From Gammaproteobacteria bacterium (GTDB taxonomy: Bacteria > Pseudomonadota > Gammaproteobacteria > Enterobacterales > Alteromonadaceae): a DNA stretch of 64,000 bases. Of the stretch, positions 1 to 7,077 are shown in pieces (position 1 is the first letter of the stretch; each line of letters starts with the position of its first letter). Under the pieces are notes generated by a model, which was not told where the DNA came from, searched no databases, and saw only the letters and a list, made by a program, of their open reading frames with translations. The position numbers and the translations under genes are program-made. Where the stretch lies: NCBI GenBank assembly GCA_018825965.1, contig JAHKAA010000026.1, positions 62,001 to 126,000 of the forward strand, in the 5' to 3' direction.

Positions 1-252
1 CATTTCTTGCTTGTCGCTGTTCTTGCTATCCCGAATGAAATAAAACTCATTGAGCTCAGGCGTGAACACCCCACTAACTTCCCAACCTTCAGTAGAAACA
101 ATACCAGGTGCAAAAATTTCTGGTGTTGAACCTGGTAGCTTTTGCCCAAGGTAAGGGCCTGTTAGCACTGGAGATCCGTTTTCTGCATAACTTTCGCCAA
201 CGACAACTAAAGCTGAAAACACCAGAGCCGCTGACATATAAATACGCTTCAT
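1..252 (-). CDS. Secreted PD40/TolB-like beta-propeller protein, N-terminal part only
   Basis: This is the beginning of a minus-strand gene that runs off the left edge; 84 codons are visible from an ATG at 252. The first 23 residues form a clear Sec signal peptide (MKR, hydrophobic stretch, then ESYA before the cut), so the product is probably periplasmic or surface exposed. The mature part contains GPYLGQK, a proline-rich turn, APGIVSTEGWEVSGVF and FYFIRD. From memory this resembles the first blade of PD40/TolB-like propeller proteins common in Alteromonadales. The function cannot be told from this fragment. A GTTGAGC motif about 35 bp upstream could be another cassette boundary but is not supported by a matching end in view. 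Confidence 0.6.
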   Translation of the reverse strand, partial: MKRIYMSAALVFSALVVVGESYAENGSPVLTGPYLGQKLPGSTPEIFAPGIVSTEGWEVSGVFTPELNEFYFIRDSKNSDKQEM

Positions 253-781
253 AATATATCCTTATTAAAATGTGGTAGATATAGCGCTCAACTTAATTAA
301 ACAGGCTTTAACGTAGTACACATATCGCCACCGTATTGAAGCTTGTTTTCATACTGAGAGTTTCGTTATGGTTGCCCTGATTAAGATGAGCCGAGCTTGG
401 GCCGCTGATGCTTGTGTCTCCAACCTGTTGTGACCAGAGGGTGGGCATTCGGGATAAAGCATTTCTTCCGGCTTGATGCCGTGCGACTATAGCGCGCAAT
501 AAATCCGCTTATCTCGTATTATCATCCCAGGTCTGGGGGGACACCCGAAAGCATTTTATAGTGGCACCGCCAAGCATCCCGATAAATTTTGTTGCCAGAA
601 AACAGCCTTTAGAGTCAAGTCTTGCCCTGTGCCCCGTCAAATCAGAACCAAACAAAAATGTTCATAAAATCAAAAAATAAGAGAAAAACATCACCAATTC
701 ATTCACAACTAATGATGTCCCCCTTAAAAAATCGGAGCATGGGGCAAGACTGGTTCGTTTGATACACCTATCGTTAGTGCG
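253..781. other. Non-coding accessory DNA with an IS110-like remnant
   Basis: No convincing gene is present here; the short open frames lack ribosome binding sites and protein-like composition. The stretch from about 366 to 505 (around GACCAGAGGGTGGGCATTC and CGGCTTGATGCCGTGCGAC) resembles, from memory, the conserved non-coding flank of IS110/IS1111-family insertion sequences, but no transposase follows it. The rest is low-complexity AT-rich sequence. Two copies of a GGGGCAAGAC-type motif occur (near 616 on the minus strand, near 740 on the plus strand); related copies lie near 1487 and 1611. Confidence 0.35.
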
Positions 782-807
782 TCATATACCGCATCTAACT
801 CTATGCA
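772..807. repeat. Direct repeat, copy 1 (contains GTTAGAT on the minus strand)
   Basis: About 34 bp here recur at 1572-1605 with two substitutions and one 2-bp indel (core CCGCATCTAACTCTATGCA). On the minus strand the core reads GTTAGAT, which fits the GTTRRRY right end of an integron attC site. The two copies flank the cassette that holds the gene at 921-1409. Confidence 0.7.
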
Positions 808-877
808 GCCCGGGTTTAGAGCAACCGGAAATGAATAAAGCAAGGCTTACAGAGAAAACATTTATAAGCTTAAACAT
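782..877 (-). pseudogene. Truncated lipoprotein leader (31 codons)
   Basis: An AAGGAG ribosome binding site lies 5-6 bases before an ATG at 877. It is followed by a textbook lipoprotein signal peptide: basic start (MFKL), hydrophobic core and lipobox FISGC with the lipidation Cys at residue 19. After only three more residues the frame enters the direct repeat at 772-807 and stops. The most likely reading is the 5' end of a lipoprotein gene cut off by a recombination event at the repeat. A genuine mini-lipoprotein is possible but less likely, because the last nine residues are simply the translated repeat. Confidence 0.45.
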
Positions 878-911
878 GATGTCTCCTTATATAGTCCTGA
901 TTTATGTGCTT

Positions 912-918
912 GTTATGT
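912..918 (-). other. Cassette 3 distal end, attC R''-like motif ACATAAC
   Basis: On the minus strand ACATAAC begins two bases after the TAG of the gene at 921-1409. It is the reverse complement, with one mismatch, of the GTTATAT found 16 bases upstream of that gene's GTG start. No matching bulged stem follows, so the rest of this attC seems lost or rearranged. Confidence 0.4.
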
Positions 919-920
919 TA

Positions 921-1409
921 CTAGGCCAAAAATTTAGATGTAATTACAAGTAAATACCCTAAAAGTAAAAAAGCATCTCTCAAGTATTGGCAAACCTTTA
1001 TACCTGTAGATATTTTTCCAATTAAGTCAGCAAACATATTCTGCACATTCGAAAATTTTTGTGCCTCTGTGAGGTGCCACGACTTCTTACCTGGATCAAT
1101 ACCCTCTAATTCACTTTTGCTGAAATGCTCTTTAGCTGTGTCTTCGCATTCAACAAGTTTATAATTTTTTTCATGCTTTATATTGGATATAAATATTTTT
1201 GCTAGGCCAAATACAACCGAAAACATTAATGAGGTAATTGCCAATAACATCATTGATTCAGTATTAAACGTAAAAGAAGTATTAAAAGTAAAAGGTTTCG
1301 CAAAGTAAGCAAAAGTCGCTGCGGATATTCCTACTACAAAGTAATCAAATTTTTCAACAGTCTGTAAGTAATGCTTTATCAATGCATTTCGTACTTCGGA
1401 CATGCTCAC
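921..1409 (-). CDS. Cassette-borne membrane protein of unknown function
   Basis: 162 residues from a GTG at 1409 (alternative ATG two codons later, at 1403). GAGGTGAGC around the start gives a ribosome binding site. I do not recognise the family. Hydrophobic segments at roughly residues 24-40, 52-74 and 142-160 suggest two or three membrane passes. Between the second and third lies a charged, mostly helical stretch of about 65 residues (KHEKNYKLVECEDTAKEHF and following). The gene sits alone between cassette-type ends and has higher AT content than the core genes, in keeping with horizontal acquisition. No partner gene suggests a role. Confidence 0.7.
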   Translation of the reverse strand: MSMSEVRNALIKHYLQTVEKFDYFVVGISAATFAYFAKPFTFNTSFTFNTESMMLLAITSLMFSVVFGLAKIFISNIKHEKNYKLVECEDTAKEHFSKSELEGIDPGKKSWHLTEAQKFSNVQNMFADLIGKISTGIKVCQYLRDAFLLLGYLLVITSKFLA

Positions 1410-1418
1410 CTCAAATTG

Positions 1419-1456
1419 ATATAACGCTCTAGTCAGAGACGCCGTTGTTTGGCGTC
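1419..1456 (-). other. Cassette 3 proximal end with attC-like hairpin
   Basis: GTTATAT on the minus strand (1425-1419) is preceded by TAGAGC and by a perfect hairpin GACGCC-7 nt-GGCGTC (1438-1456). A short GC-rich stem next to a GTTRRRY core is attC-like, but I could not find a clean left arm, so it may be a decayed site. Confidence 0.35.
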
Positions 1457-1571
1457 GGTTTAATTCGCTCCTAATCGTAGGAAGGTCTTGCCCTGCCCCC
1501 CAGTAATGCCGTAAACCGCATGTTCCAAAAATACAGTCGCCCCCAGAAAGTCAGGGCAGTCTCACCGCCCC

Positions 1572-1605
1572 CGCTAGTACGTCATACCGCATCTAACTCT
1601 ATGCA
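1572..1605. repeat. Direct repeat, copy 2
   Basis: Second copy of the repeat at 772-807, about 800 bp away and in the same orientation. It is followed on the plus strand by GCAAGACTTGACC, a motif related to those near 616 and 740. It lies where the right half of the attC after the gene at 1677-2246 would be expected. Confidence 0.7.
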
Positions 1606-1682
1606 CGAAGCAAGACTTGACCTCGTTGGCAGCCGGGTGAACAACTGTTGCGCGTCGATCCGTGAAGTGGCGCTTGTTAGAC
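1591..1682 (-). other. Chimeric attC-like site after cassette 2
   Basis: On the minus strand GTCTAAC (1682-1676) overlaps the TAA stop of the gene at 1677-2246 and is followed by AAGCGCCACTTCACGG, a typical left attC arm. The expected complementary right arm is absent. Instead the sequence runs into the direct repeat and ends with GTTAGAT (1597-1591). It looks like half an attC joined to foreign sequence. Confidence 0.4.
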
Positions 1683-2246
1683 GCTTCCCTGATAAGTGCA
1701 TGTGCCGCTTTCATTAGATAAAATTCCAAAACCGTTTTGCACATGAATTTTGAAAACTGAACGAACAACCTCAACTGGAATATTTAGTGATTCAGCTAAT
1801 TGAATTCCGTCAATCCACACACCAATTTCGCAGTTTTCGACAAGATCATATAGATCAGCCATATTTTTCTGATTTTCAAACAATCTCGCTAAGTAAAGAG
1901 TAAATGAAGGATCAACTAATTCAATTCCTTGTGCGTATTTATTGCCACTATACATGTCACGTTTTAAATATCCCTTTGACTCAAAAAGAGCAAGTGGACG
2001 AGAAAATTGTTTATATGCTTCATTGCTGAGAGATACACCATGAATATCAAAGCTTTCATATATTGATCTGCATAACTCCTGCGAGTTTTCACAGATTGAA
2101 CCTATCGGATCTTCTAAGTTATCAATTCTGCGATTTAATTCTATGCCATCTACTTCAGATTGAAGTTGAAGAAAGACAGCGGCTACAGGATTGAATGCAC
2201 TCCCTACTCTTACTGCTTTCATAAACCAATCAGCTAAACTCGTCAT
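1677..2246 (-). CDS. Cassette-borne protein of unknown function
   Basis: 189 residues from an ATG at 2246, 13 bases after the end of the attC core GTTAGGC, with CAGGAG as ribosome binding site; such a short leader is normal for a cassette gene. I do not recognise the family. The protein has no signal peptide or membrane segment. Residues about 25-45 (LQLQSEVDGIELNRRIDNLE) look like a short coiled coil. The C-terminal part (LAESLNIPVEVVRSVFKIHVQNGF) resembles a winged helix-turn-helix, with the preceding YLKRD..SGNKYAQGIELVDPSF also wing-like. DNA binding is only a possibility. Confidence 0.7.
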   Translation of the reverse strand: MTSLADWFMKAVRVGSAFNPVAAVFLQLQSEVDGIELNRRIDNLEDPIGSICENSQELCRSIYESFDIHGVSLSNEAYKQFSRPLALFESKGYLKRDMYSGNKYAQGIELVDPSFTLYLARLFENQKNMADLYDLVENCEIGVWIDGIQLAESLNIPVEVVRSVFKIHVQNGFGILSNESGTCTYQGSV

Positions 2247-2259
2247 TTAAACTCCTGTC

Positions 2260-2331
2260 GCCTAACGCCCGCAGCACGGGAAAAATTGTAGCGCAGCGAA
2301 AACTTTGTCCCCGTGACTGCGTCTATTATGT
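2260..2331 (-). other. attC recombination site between cassettes 1 and 2
   Basis: This 72-bp site read on the minus strand has all the parts of an attC: left core ACATAAT overlapping the stop codon of the upstream gene, arm GCAGTCACGGG, a central loop, arm CCCGTGCTGC and right core GTTAGGC. The two arms pair perfectly except for one unpaired T, which matches the bulged extrahelical base that integrases use to choose the strand. The left core departs from consensus at one base (AAT instead of AAC). Confidence 0.7.
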
Positions 2332-3303
2332 TTTGTTGATGCCGAGATTAAGTTCATACCCTTTCTTATACTCAAAATGCAAAGCGGTTGTAATGCTCTT
2401 TAGATATGAGTATATGCAAATTGCTTTATCAACAATTCCTTTATCTGCCGAAACCAGTGCATTGCAATAGGAAGCCATACCAATATGCTGACCGTCAGAC
2501 ATAATGTTCTTAATCTTTTCCCGCTTAGCTAATCCCCTGTCAGGACTTATACCAATCATATTTAGAACTATATGTGCACCTGATATTGCCCCATGTTGGG
2601 TGTGCTGTACCCCCTCAACTCCAGGAATTGGCTCAAACCCAAAAAACTGATTTTTTGTGACATTAGGAATTGATGAAGAAATTAAATCCCAAACTTCATC
2701 TATTGCAGAACTAGATTTCTCGATATTTTTTCGAGCTTCACTGGTGACGCCGAAAGCTCTTCTTGTTTTGTCTATTGGCATTCGCTCTTTCAGGTGCACC
2801 TCAATCGAAGCCTTCAGATCGCCAGAAACAATAGACGCATTTTCAATTATCTTTTGACGCAGCTCATCGTCGATAATGCTTGTGATTCTCTCGATTTCTT
2901 CCCGCATTTGGTCTGGCGTTTCACTAAGCTCTTTGAAGTTATTCGCACCAAAAGATCGAATAAGATGCTCGACTATATGGTCTGCAACATCCTCATACCC
3001 AGCTATTGCTTCTAAGTGCTGTTTGTACCTCATGCAGGGATCAATGTAGTCGCGAAGAACGATATTGCTTACAGACTGGAACTCTTCATTCAGAACATCA
3101 CTAATCTCTCTAGCTCTCAGTAATCGCATGCCCTCAAGAGCGTCAGTATTCCCATTCCTATGTATTTCATCTAAATGAACGTGGGAATAAACCCAAATAA
3201 ACCGCTCCGGTTCACGAATAGATATATCTCCGCATGCCAAGTATCTGTAGACATTCATGTCAGCGTATATTATCGGATTGTCCGACACCAAATACGAATT
3301 CAT
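2326..3303 (-). CDS. Cassette-borne PIN-like domain protein, putative nuclease
   Basis: 325 residues from an ATG at 3303. The N-terminus PIIYADMNVYRYLA (residues 10-23) matches the opening strand and first acidic residue of PIN-fold nucleases (usually DxN). WVYSHVHLDEI at about 37-47 fits the next strand and helix with an acidic residue. Near the C-terminus GQHIGMASYCNALVSADKGI fits the last PIN block (histidine, then a strand ending in an acidic residue followed by K). The middle is long and helical, about 200 residues, so this is not a small VapC-type toxin. Ribonuclease or toxin activity is inference from the motif pattern only. No antitoxin gene adjoins it. Confidence 0.6.
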   Translation of the reverse strand: MNSYLVSDNPIIYADMNVYRYLACGDISIREPERFIWVYSHVHLDEIHRNGNTDALEGMRLLRAREISDVLNEEFQSVSNIVLRDYIDPCMRYKQHLEAIAGYEDVADHIVEHLIRSFGANNFKELSETPDQMREEIERITSIIDDELRQKIIENASIVSGDLKASIEVHLKERMPIDKTRRAFGVTSEARKNIEKSSSAIDEVWDLISSSIPNVTKNQFFGFEPIPGVEGVQHTQHGAISGAHIVLNMIGISPDRGLAKREKIKNIMSDGQHIGMASYCNALVSADKGIVDKAICIYSYLKSITTALHFEYKKGYELNLGINKT

Positions 3304-3567
3304 CCTAGTTCACTCAATTTCCCGGAAACATAACAACGTGCTTCCATAAACAGACTGCCCGCAAGTCGAACATTTTTCTGCCTTCTTTCCCGATTTTTAC
3401 TCATCCCAAATTAACGCTGATGTATCTCTATTTCAACAGTTTTTTCTGAAATCACTAAAATCCTGGCGGACAAAATCTGTACAAGCTTTACGCTAGTTGT
3501 TCATCGTTTTACTCAAGGCACACCGCTGTGTTTTTTAACAGTGCTACCGCTGTAATCCCAAGCCAAT
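3304..3567. other. Non-coding junction between the cassette cluster and the core genome
   Basis: Apart from the cassette core GTTATGT (minus strand, 3334-3328), I see no gene in this stretch, which ends at the eda terminator. The change from AT-rich orphan genes to core metabolic genes occurs here. Confidence 0.5.
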
Positions 3568-3593
3568 AAAAAACCCGACCAAAGCCGGGTTTC
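3568..3593 (-). terminator. Terminator of the Entner-Doudoroff operon
   Basis: On the minus strand AAACCCGGC-TTTG-GTCGGGTTTTTT forms a strong stem followed by a run of T, about 30 bases after the eda stop codon. Confidence 0.85.
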
Positions 3594-3622
3594 TCGTATC
3601 AAACTAAACAACACAAAAGCTC

Positions 3623-4279
3623 TTACTTCTGTACTGTCTTCGCTTCTTCCACTGCTGCTAAACATAGCTCGGTGATTTTATGCCATTCTTTGTTTTTAAT
3701 GGCGTCATCCGGCACTATCCAGCTGCCACCTACGCAACGTACGTTGGGTAAGGCTAGGTATTCTTTGAAGTTTTTCTCGTTAATGCCGCCTGTTGGGCAA
3801 AAACGTATATCAGAGAATGGGCCGTGGATCGACTTTAAGGTTTTTACGCCGCCTGCTGCTTCTGCCGGGAAAAATTTAAAGTGGGTGTAGCCTACTGCTG
3901 TGCCTTCCATTAATTCAGAAATACTGGCGATGCCAGGAATTAATGGGATCACACTGTCTTTGCCTGCTTGCAGCAGCTCGCGGGTCGAACCCGGGCTGAT
4001 GGCAAAACGGGCGCCTGCCGCTATCACTTCTTCCAATTGTTTGGCTGTAGTGACAGTACCTGCGCCTACTATGGCGTCCGGTACTTCAGTCGCTAATAAA
4101 CGTATTGCATCCAAAGCCACAGGAGTACGTAAGGTCACTTCCAGTACTTTAATGCCACCTGCTACTAAGGCTTTTGCCATAGGAACAGCGTCTGCTAAAT
4201 CTTTGATCACAATGACGGGCACCACAGGGCCTTGTGCGAACAAAACGTCAGGTTGTAGTTGCCAATTTTCAAATGCCAT
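3623..4279 (-). CDS. eda: KDPG/KHG aldolase (Entner-Doudoroff aldolase)
   Basis: 218 residues, normal length for the class I aldolase that splits 2-keto-3-deoxy-6-phosphogluconate into pyruvate and glyceraldehyde 3-phosphate. The Schiff-base lysine is K135 in HFKFFPAE and the catalytic acid is E47 in LEVTLRT. GAGTV (72-76), SPG (95-97) and PTGGI in the C-terminal third form the phosphate and substrate pocket of the TIM barrel. It is the last gene of zwf-pgl-edd-glk-eda, four bases after glk, and is followed by a terminator. It is therefore expected to follow HexR control from the zwf promoter. Cytoplasmic, a homotrimer in the family. Confidence 0.97.
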
Positions 4280-4283
4280 AGTG

Positions 4284-5252
4284 TTAACTCGCCATATGTT
4301 GTTTTAAGTAGACTGCACAGCCGGTTAAACCTGGTTGCTCTGCAGTGACGACAAAAGTTGCAATACGGCGGTTGAAGTCTTGAAACCGGCCTTTTGCTTC
4401 GAATCGGGTTCTGAATTCGCTTTGATTAATCAGCCCCAGTAATTTGGGCGTAATACCACCAGCGACAAAAACGCCACCAAAGGTACTTAGTGTCAGGGCT
4501 AAATCCCCTGCCAAACCACCTAAACTGGCAAAAAACTGTTCGATAACGGCTTTGCATAAAACACAGCTGCCATCTAAAGCTTTACCTGCAATCTGAGCAG
4601 CGTTTAATGGCTCCACCACTTTGTTATTAAAAGCGGCTATTGCCAGATACAAATCTTCCAAACCAGGACCTGATAACAAACGTTCAGGGCTGACATGGCC
4701 GTATTTGTTGGCTAAAAACTTCTGGATGAACCATTCCTGTTCGGTCTGAGCGGTAAAATCTATATGACCGCCCTCGCCAGGTAATGGCAGATAACCTAAA
4801 GCGGTCGGAATTAAATGCGCTACACCTAAACCTGTGCCAGCGCCTAACACGGCCATAGGTTTGAACTGATCAGCATGGCCTTCACCAATTTGCACCAGTT
4901 CAGTAGATTTCAGCGCAGGTAAGCTCATGGCCACAGCGGTAAAGTCGTTCAGCACTATAAATTCAGCTAAATCTAAATCCGCTTTCATTTGGCTGACTGA
5001 GAACTGCCAGTGAAAGTTAGTCATTTTGACAAAATCACCTGTCACAGGGCAGGCAATGGCCAAAGCCACATGACGGATAGCCGTCAGGCCCTGCTCTGCG
5101 CGGTAAAACTGCAACGCATCAGCCAGGGTGTCAAAATCAGCACAAGGATAAACAGCAACCTTGTCCAGGTGCAGAGTTTCTAAATCCACACGGCTAAAAC
5201 GTGCGTTAGTGCCACCTATGTCAGCAACAATAGCAAACTGGATCTCAGCCAT
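4284..5252 (-). CDS. glk: Glucokinase
   Basis: 322 residues; phosphorylates glucose with ATP to give glucose 6-phosphate for Zwf. The ATP-binding start [11 protein letters not shown] is at 10-20, the catalytic aspartate is D103 in LNDF, GAGTGLG is at 137-143 and the glucose-binding [10 protein letters not shown] is at 157-166, all as in E. coli Glk. The start codon overlaps the end of edd by 8 bases and the stop is 4 bases before eda, so translation is probably coupled. Its place in the operon implies that free glucose enters the Entner-Doudoroff route without relying on a sugar PTS; that last point is inference. Confidence 0.96.
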
Positions 5253-7077
5253 GGTACTGGTCCTCTGTGTTAAACAGACTGCAAGCCCCTTGTTCTGCGC
5301 CAGTGATCACCATACGCATACCACCAAACATCTCGCGGCCCATGCCCCAATGACTATCGCTCATATCACGGGTAGCCACTTCACGTTTAGCCAGCTCTTC
5401 ATCAGACACCAGCACTTTTAATACGCCATTAATACCGTCCACCAGCATCATATCGCCGGTCTGGATTTTGGCTATTACGCCACCGTCTACCGCTTCCGGT
5501 GTGACGTGGATAGCTGCAGGCACCTTACCTGAAGCGCCCGACATACGACCGTCTGTGACTAAAGCCACATGGAAACCCCGGTCTTGTAATACACCCAATG
5601 GTGGCGTCAGTTTATGCAGCTCTGGCATACCACAGGCACGAGGGCCCTGGAAACGCACGACCACTACACAATCTTTATTTAAATCACCGGCTTTAAAAGC
5701 GGCGTCTAGTTCATGCTGGCTGGAGAATACAACAGCAGGAGCCTGCACTATTTCAGTACCTTCACGCAGCGCTGAAGTTTTAATTACACCCCGGCCTACG
5801 TTGCCGGATAACACCTGCAAACCACCGTGATCTTTAAATGGTTTAGCGGCATCAGCCAACACTGTTAAATCAGAAGACTCTGTCGGGCCATCAACCCATA
5901 CTAATTTGCCGTCCTGCAGTACAGGAGTTTGGGTGTAACGGCGTAAACCAGGGCCAGCCACTGTATGTACATCTTCATGCAGCAAACCGTTGTCTAATAA
6001 AGTACGGATTAAATACGCCATACCACCAGCCTGCTGGAAGTGGTTAATATCAGCCTGGCCATTCGGATAAATTCTGGTGATCAGTGGTGTTGCATGCGAA
6101 AGTTCAGCAAAGTCATCCCAGTTCACAATAAAACCGGCTGAACGGGCTACAGCTATTAAGTGCATAGTGTGGTTGGTCGACCCACCAGTGGCTAACAAAC
6201 CAACAATACCGTTCACTACAGCTTTGACATCAACAATTTTGGAGATAGGTAAATAATCAGTGCCGAGATCAGTTAAACGGGTGATCTGACGGGCTGCAGC
6301 TTTAGTTAATTCATCACGCAGCGCTGTACCTGGATTGACAAAAGAAGAACCAGGTAAATGCAGGCCCATCACTTCAACCACGAGCTGGTTTGAGTTGGCC
6401 GTACCATAAAAGGTGCAAGTACCAGCGCTGTGGTAGGACGCAGATTCAGAATCTAATAACTCTTCATTACCTACTTTGCCTTCAGCATACAACTGACGAA
6501 CACGGGCTTTTTCTTTGTTTGGAATACCAGATGGCATTGGGCCTGCTGGCACAAAGACAAAAGGCAGATGACCAAAACTTAAAGCCGCCATCAATAAACC
6601 CGGCACTATCTTGTCACAAATGCCCAGCATCATGCCGCCGTCAAACATATTGTGCGACAGGCCAACAGCTGCAGACATGGCAATAATATCGCGGCTTAAT
6701 AAACTAAGCTCCATGCCTGGCTGACCCTGAGTCACACCATCACACATAGCAGGAACGCCACCGGCAAACTGAGCAACACTGCCCACTTCAGCAGCAGCAG
6801 CTTTGATCAGCGCAGGATAAGCTTCGTAAGGCTGGTGTGCAGAAAGCATGTCGTTGTACGAAGAAATAATACCGATGTTCGCTTTGGTTAAGCTGCGTAA
6901 ATCAGTTTTTTCCTGAGCGGAACAAGCTGCAAAACCATGAGCCAGATTGCCACAGGCCAAAGCTCCGCGGTGCGGCCCTTTGGCACGGGCCTGTTCCATC
7001 CGCTGCAGATAAAGCGCACGGCTTTTTTCGCTGCGTGCCGCTATTCTGTCTGTGACCTGTTGTATAACCGGATTCAT
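5245..7077 (-). CDS. edd: 6-Phosphogluconate dehydratase
   Basis: 610 residues from the ATG at 7077, which has AGGTG just upstream (a GTG two codons earlier is possible). It removes water from 6-phosphogluconate to give KDPG. It belongs to the IlvD/Edd family; Fe-S cluster cysteines include C154 in GICDKIVPG and C221 in [12 protein letters not shown], and a further cysteine is in MCDGVTQG near 112. The C-terminal half has the family signatures [14 protein letters not shown] and [12 protein letters not shown]. The cluster makes such enzymes oxygen sensitive. It lies between pgl and glk and overlaps glk by 8 bases. Confidence 0.97.

Follow-up and report, generated by a model that had tools for sequence, protein, structure and literature searches.

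The left edge of a 64,000-nucleotide stretch of a Rheinheimera genome (GenBank assembly GCA_018825965.1, contig JAHKAA010000026.1, positions 62,001 to 126,000; the whole stretch is called the window below) carries an integron attachment site (attI) that lies beside the gene eda, with no integron integrase gene (intI) next to it, and heads a short array of gene cassettes. We think it highly probable that this orphan attI is part of a distributed integron, in which dispersed attI sites are loaded in trans by the integrase (IntI). The scattered attI sites on Rheinheimera chromosomes suggest that one integron spreads gene capture over many loci. Direct support comes from the homology of the attI, its junction, the orientation of the cassette recombination sites (attC), the differing cassettes at an orthologous locus that lacks intI, and the cassettes shared between loci. 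The features of the window, including open reading frames (ORFs), are as follows, from the attI leftwards after its neighbor.

3623-4279, minus strand: eda, the fixed right-hand neighbor
3331-3542, unstranded: orphan attI with intI-leader remnant, from homology to the leader on contig C41 and an alignment of 38 copies
3526-3541, unstranded: LexA/SOS-box-like CTGTGTTTTTTAACAG
2326-3303, minus strand: gene C of cassette 1, 325 aa
2261-2330, minus strand: attC of cassette 1, the best attC-model match in positions 1-3700 (E 0.018, filters off)
1677-2246, minus strand: gene B of cassette 2, 189 aa
1592-1681, minus strand: degenerate attC-like end of cassette 2 (E 0.027 with filters off, 0.61 with default filters)
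921-1409, minus strand: gene A of cassette 3, 162 aa
863-917, minus strand: possible remnant attC of cassette 3, the third-best match (8.3 bits, E 0.54)
1-252, minus strand: beginning of another ORF in the variable interval, extending left beyond the window to L009:19380

An orphan attI next to eda

Positions 3355-3542 (188 bp) are 81% identical to the attI that immediately precedes intI on this genome's contig C41, and the match stops just before the intI start codon. The recombination junction, TAACA at 3331-3335, has the cassettes to its left, and the right edge of the cluster at 3334 is the attI/cassette junction; the left edge is sharp in nearly all of the 38 aligned attI copies. Homology and junction together mark this site as the probable attI heading the array. 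It is followed not by intI but by eda, which we take to encode the 2-keto-3-deoxy-6-phosphogluconate (KDPG) aldolase, and the integron integrase profile TIGR02249 has no match on the window's contig (C56), in line with a reading of the window made from its sequence only, which had found no integrase there.

The box at 3526-3541 occupies the same position as the one before intI in complete integrons. Its pattern, CTGT-N8-ACAG, presumably a LexA site, occurs at one fixed place in all 10 intI-linked copies, in 8 of 12 eda copies, and in none of 44 rows at other orphan loci. A looser CTG-N10-CAG, expected by chance in 3.6% of random 80-mers from the flanks, is found in 10 intI-linked, 9 eda, and 7 other orphan copies; the SOS-type box has been lost in most of the latter. 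Because the box is retained, the eda copy looks like a full integron leader without intI.

The sequence-only reading had offered two identities for the cluster, the distal part of a chromosomal integron or an integrase-less attC cluster. Its "integrase-less" cassettes stand. The distal position is rejected, since an attI was found at the right edge of the cluster, where cassette 1 abuts it. The second identity comes nearer but omits the attI, its SOS-type box, and its recurrence at many loci in the genus. Judged from homology, the cluster is most plausibly the attI-proximal end of an integron array without an integrase gene of its own.

Cassette genes and attC sites

In positions 1-3600, the ORF list gives three frames, genes A, B, and C, all on the minus strand. 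In a scripted comparison, the GTT... start box and ...AA. end box of each gene pair at 6 of 7 positions in all three cases, a result matched by 3 of 59 other window ORFs of at least 100 aa and by 2.7% of random start/stop placements. The three one-way, cassette-like genes of the sequence-only reading are thereby confirmed. None of them has an above-cut-off match in Pfam, PADLOC, or NCBIfam, and scanning the window with Rfam and for tRNA genes found nothing. A homologue of gene C (78% identity) occurs in another genus with an attC at its 3' end. A homologue of gene B (38% identity) in genome G002 likewise ends in an attC and adjoins an orphan attI of the second, C38 type described below. For gene A, a search of the remaining 195 of the 196 family genomes yielded no homologue. 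Genes C and B thus recur as cassettes elsewhere, as expected from the earlier reading, and fixed, non-cassette contexts were not what was found.

An attC covariance model was built from 25 attCs of intI-linked arrays (contigs C38 and C41 of this genome plus four relatives) and included no orphan-locus sites. Its arms covary: 81.7% of cells are paired, and the covariation score was reached by none of 500 shuffles. With filters off, its three best matches in positions 1-3700 are the ends of the three genes, all on the minus strand and individually weak; the next-best match has an E value of 4.2. With default filters over 84 kb, the only site found in the window is 1592-1681 (E 0.61), and an attC was called at E 3e-6 about 1.8 kb left of the window (L009:18159-18255), giving the interval one strong attC and two weak ones (2261-2330 and 1592-1681). 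Because default filters recover just 1592-1681, the window attCs are supported by position yet weak or degenerate. For cassette 3, the one convincing part of the possible attC remnant is its R'' box, at about 912-918. A core, read from the sequence, precedes gene A at 1422-1425; the attC of cassette 2 may therefore span about 260 nt with an insertion. The cassette attCs lie in one orientation, scoring weakly in the window and strongly in L009 and at numerous orphan loci in relatives. The attCs of this genus fit TAACAAG...GCGTTA, and a strict RYYYAAC/GTTRRRY hairpin scan had no match at its threshold in window positions 1-6000 and few in other stretches.

To the left of the window, L009:18251-18772 is a GNAT acetyltransferase cassette whose attC, by reading, closely resembles one in the C38 integron of this genome. 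An identical 22-bp repeat occurs at window positions 786-807 and 1584-1605, within degenerate attC regions; it belongs to a stretch with GTCTTGCCC repeats and has one further related place on contig C6. The possibility that the stretch 1480-1625 is an abundant repetitive extragenic palindromic element was rejected, as it occurs at just 3 places in this genome.

Cassettes at the orthologous eda locus

The eda protein is present in all 22 genomes of the genus. In 12 near-clade genomes it is 99-100% identical, and all 12 (G000, which is the present genome, G001, G002, G003, G005, G006, G009, G012, G014, G017, G019, and G020) carry an adjoining attI copy, nine near full length and three partial; the other 10 of the 22 have no attI match beside eda. 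No intI was found at any eda-locus copy in the stretches examined. The interval between eda and a conserved response-regulator-like gene (named by reading) measures 0.6 to 9.3 kb in the eight genomes with both ends.

Across the 45 pairs formed by 10 copies, the 60 nt adjoining the junction on its left have a median identity of 25%, and the 60 nt starting at 3355 one of 93%; a single pair has a common left flank, with both copies at contig ends. The 36 ORFs within 4 kb of the eda attI (up to six per locus) yielded seven between-genome matching pairs, all among G001, G019, and G012 and all at least 1.6 kb from the attI. With left flanks so divergent and so few ORFs shared near the attI, the cassettes beside the orthologous, intI-less eda attI therefore differ from species to species.

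Dispersal of the C41-type attI

A DNA search with the C41-type attI returned 96 matches in 17 of the 22 genomes (1 to 14 each). Of these, 63 were followed into their flanks, using 60 fetched stretches (59 new loci and one prior) and loci already in the set. When grouped by right flank, the 63 matches form 30 loci; intI is present at one (in 10 genomes) and absent from 29, one of which is a 78-bp partial copy. The orphan copies share about 145 to 290 bp with the intI leaders and are intergenic where read. Among 52 copies with a located junction, 37 have TAACA and 15 have near variants. We compared 60 nt on either side, the left stretch adjoining the junction and the right one starting at query base 1. 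Copies from different loci (1,223 pairs) have median identities of 28% on the left, where five pairs exceed 60%, and 80% on the right; copies within one locus group (103 pairs) have medians of 25% on the left, where four pairs exceed 60%, and 92% on the right.

Each of the 92 attC rows retained is on the array side of an attI copy and on its gene strand; 53 belong to orphan loci and 39, some of them model training sites, to intI loci. There were 98 rows in total, of which six (L009 and L011) were set aside; in three loci, the relevant attI copy is the second one on the same contig. Among orphan copies with at least 400 bp of left sequence, 27 of 54 rows have an attC within 3 kb, or 26 of 52 distinct places, since two places were entered twice; one row is a 39-bp fragment.

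Two loci stand apart. At locus g4, an RND-type gene flank is present in all 22 genomes and the attI in four, which represents gain or loss of the attI; intergenic rearrangement obscures the structure of the empty site. At L146:4001-7228 (contig C31 of G000), an orphan attI precedes a gene for an HNH nuclease and two for TIR-domain proteins that resemble anti-phage proteins, and no attC was found at this attI.

Integrases and further attI families

This genome has two integron integrases above the TIGR02249 cut-off, one with an open frame on C38 and one on C41. The C41 gene (L012:14004-15050) has an insertion, about 70 bp long by reading, that introduces an in-frame TGA ahead of the catalytic domain's end; the profile matches of the G005 and G009 intI genes are shortened in the same way. 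In other Rheinheimera, the intI-linked relatives form complete integrons, and their IntI proteins reach 96% identity to that of Rheinheimera sp. A13L.

The C38-type attI (L011:2369-2650 in this genome) is unrelated in sequence to the C41 type. A search of 10 genomes gave 49 matches to it, spread over nine of the genomes; five of the matches adjoin intI. We fetched 20 copies (L311 to L330) of the 44 non-intI matches, and no intI was found at these 20. Their junction is present in 19 (15 exact and 4 variants, the variants having been admitted by a pattern set after the alignment was viewed), the twentieth being cut by a contig end. The 46 attC rows, found at 16 of the 20 loci, are without exception on the array side and in gene-strand orientation. 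A third attI, in the R. texasensis lineage, has four orphan copies (two on C5 of G021, one on C71 of G010, and one on C4 of G016; L182, L183, L179, and L185), all with attCs on the array side. For two of the four copies, the match begins at the core; one copy shares the intI-adjacent array, and in one the match begins 11 nt to the left of this point.

The nine genomes in which both main families were sought have 5 to 18 non-intI attI matches each, fragments included. The present genome holds roughly ten orphan attIs, of two unrelated sequence families. G002 and G019 are single-contig genomes, so the orphan attIs are not an assembly artifact. In G019, which has no intI at E 1e-40, 15 attI matches from two families are accompanied by at least seven attC-bearing arrays.

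A tail repeat of about 90 to 125 bp lies to the right of some orphan attIs of two unrelated families (L318:5484-5610, L143, L107, and L317). At up to 8 of 26 mismatches, a permissive match with no shuffle control, it is found in 13 of 66 C41-type and 6 of 21 C38-type rows; at up to 4 of 26, in three and six rows, respectively. It occurs three to five times in each of four genomes, at attIs and elsewhere.

Cassettes shared between loci

Stretches of at least 150 bp common to different locus groups occupy 26 rows, six of them within one genome. The eda cassette of G003 is identical over 305 bp to the first cassette of that genome's intI array, and a cassette of the C38 integron of the present genome matches the first cassette of its own orphan locus on C69 (452 bp, 96.5%). 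Further examples are C41 of this genome and the G003 eda locus, both at the attI (297 bp, 94.6%); the G009 eda locus and orphan locus g6 of G019 (418 bp, 99.3%); and the eda and intI loci of G017 (218 bp, 100%, cut by a contig end).

Proposed mechanism and alternative explanations

Orphan attIs lie at many chromosomal loci, and integrase genes are present at one or two loci or have been lost. Under the proposed mechanism, IntI made under SOS control at another locus would recombine the bottom strand of cassette attCs with these attIs; acting from elsewhere in this way, one SOS-regulated integrase would serve many short arrays. In the window, cassettes would have been inserted at the G|TT junction of the attI at 3331-3542 next to eda, building an array that runs leftwards through genes C, B, and A to the GNAT cassette, with its good attC, about 5 kb away. 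Recombination in trans, expression from the attI, and movement or spread of the attI unit are the parts that we infer. It is somewhat better than an even bet that the attIs are small dispersing elements that seed about ten capture loci per genome and that a single IntI under SOS control loads them all in trans; capture and storage would then be decoupled from the integrase locus. The basis for this extension is that two attI families, unrelated to each other, occur in one clade and a third in a different lineage, and that some copies of both main families have the tail repeat in common.

Several observations weigh against a distributed integron. The IntI of C41 is interrupted by its in-frame stop, and the only intact IntI of this genome is of the C38 type, whose native attI is unrelated. 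G001, G014, and G019 have no integron integrase at E 1e-40, yet orphan attIs are present in them; with no intI at that threshold, their arrays cannot be active now. The window's own attCs score weakly, and 26 of the 52 distinct orphan C41-type copies, the window included, have no attC at the model threshold. A leftward promoter was sought in the attI by a crude consensus scan, and none was found. Of the 12 eda attI copies, three are fragments, and the other 33 of the 96 C41-type matches, mostly short, lay outside the flank analysis. Shared cassettes could stem from homologous recombination or duplication, and the cassette differences might predate the loss of intI.

The strongest rival, which we regard as unlikely, is that each orphan locus was a complete integron that lost intI in place, leaving the attI as a relic and the array dead. 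The window fits this in that its attI copy reaches almost to the intI start and retains the SOS-type box, and its array looks degenerate. In-place loss would, however, demand many integrons per genome. It also sits poorly with the CTGT-N8-ACAG box being kept in none of the rows at other orphan loci, with the species-specific cassettes at the intI-less eda locus, and with a tblastn search for intI remnants to the right of orphan copies (13 IntI proteins, up to E 1), which found one place only, an unconvincing 36 aa at 36% identity. Less probable still is that the repeat is an ordinary mobile element, resembling a miniature inverted-repeat transposable element, that by chance came to lie upstream of intI and at which cassettes land secondarily. 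Its copies are indeed dispersed, small, and non-coding, about 145 to 290 bp long, intergenic where read, and sometimes accompanied by the tail repeat, but almost every aligned copy has the recombination core as its left edge, beside different cassettes, and two other, unrelated attIs are dispersed likewise.

Insertion by IntI at secondary genomic (attG) sites, with no true attI, would scatter cassettes over many loci, as PMC12444791 describes; this is very improbable here, being contradicted by the attI sequence that orphan loci share with intI leaders, which at about 145 to 290 bp far exceeds a short core. The idea that the motifs arose by chance in three ordinary hypothetical genes draws on the weak individual attC scores and is barely credible: it is ruled out by the attC-model matches at the gene ends and the box-pairing comparison, and it conflicts with the attI homology, the location of the three best matches, and the homologues that are cassettes elsewhere.

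Relation to known systems and implications

Like a sedentary chromosomal integron, the window locus and its relatives have an attI, attC sites, one-way cassette genes, and an SOS-type box; unlike one, the window locus lacks intI and there are many attI sites per genome. Integrons typically have one attI near the integrase, according to the IntegronFinder 2.0 paper (PMC9024848). The attC-bearing array without intI resembles a cluster of at least two attC sites lacking an integrase (CALIN), and PMC12444791 describes CALINs as mobilizable in trans by a functional IntI. The window array differs in having an attI, on which the CALIN definition is silent. IntegronFinder, as PMC9024848 has it, does not detect attI outside class 1, and orphan attIs would therefore escape it. 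Excision with intI1 on a separate plasmid is reported in PMC12901181.

The delta-attI gene cassettes of mobile integrons, covered in PMC12901181, also carry attI sequence away from its place beside intI. There, pieces of attI form the ends of cassettes within class 1 and 2 integrons; 14 to 18 nt are kept in four of the eight types, and one array has a complete 65-bp attI1 flanking a cassette on both sides. In Rheinheimera, by contrast, whole attI leaders head separate chromosomal arrays. With attG integration, the present loci have in common scattered cassettes served by one IntI, and they differ in that the target is a conserved attI of about 145 to 290 bp and not a short core. Among the titles listed by searches of open-licence full texts in PubMed Central, none concerned dispersed or orphan attI sites heading arrays, or Rheinheimera integrons; the term "attI-like" occurs in PMC10127599.

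Integrons are described as having one integrase, typically one attI, and one array. Genomes with many attIs and few or no intI genes alter the view of integrase-less arrays, some of which may be working capture sites supplied from other loci rather than ruins. Rheinheimera would offer a natural system with cassettes at several chromosomal positions, and it raises the new question of how the attI itself spreads.

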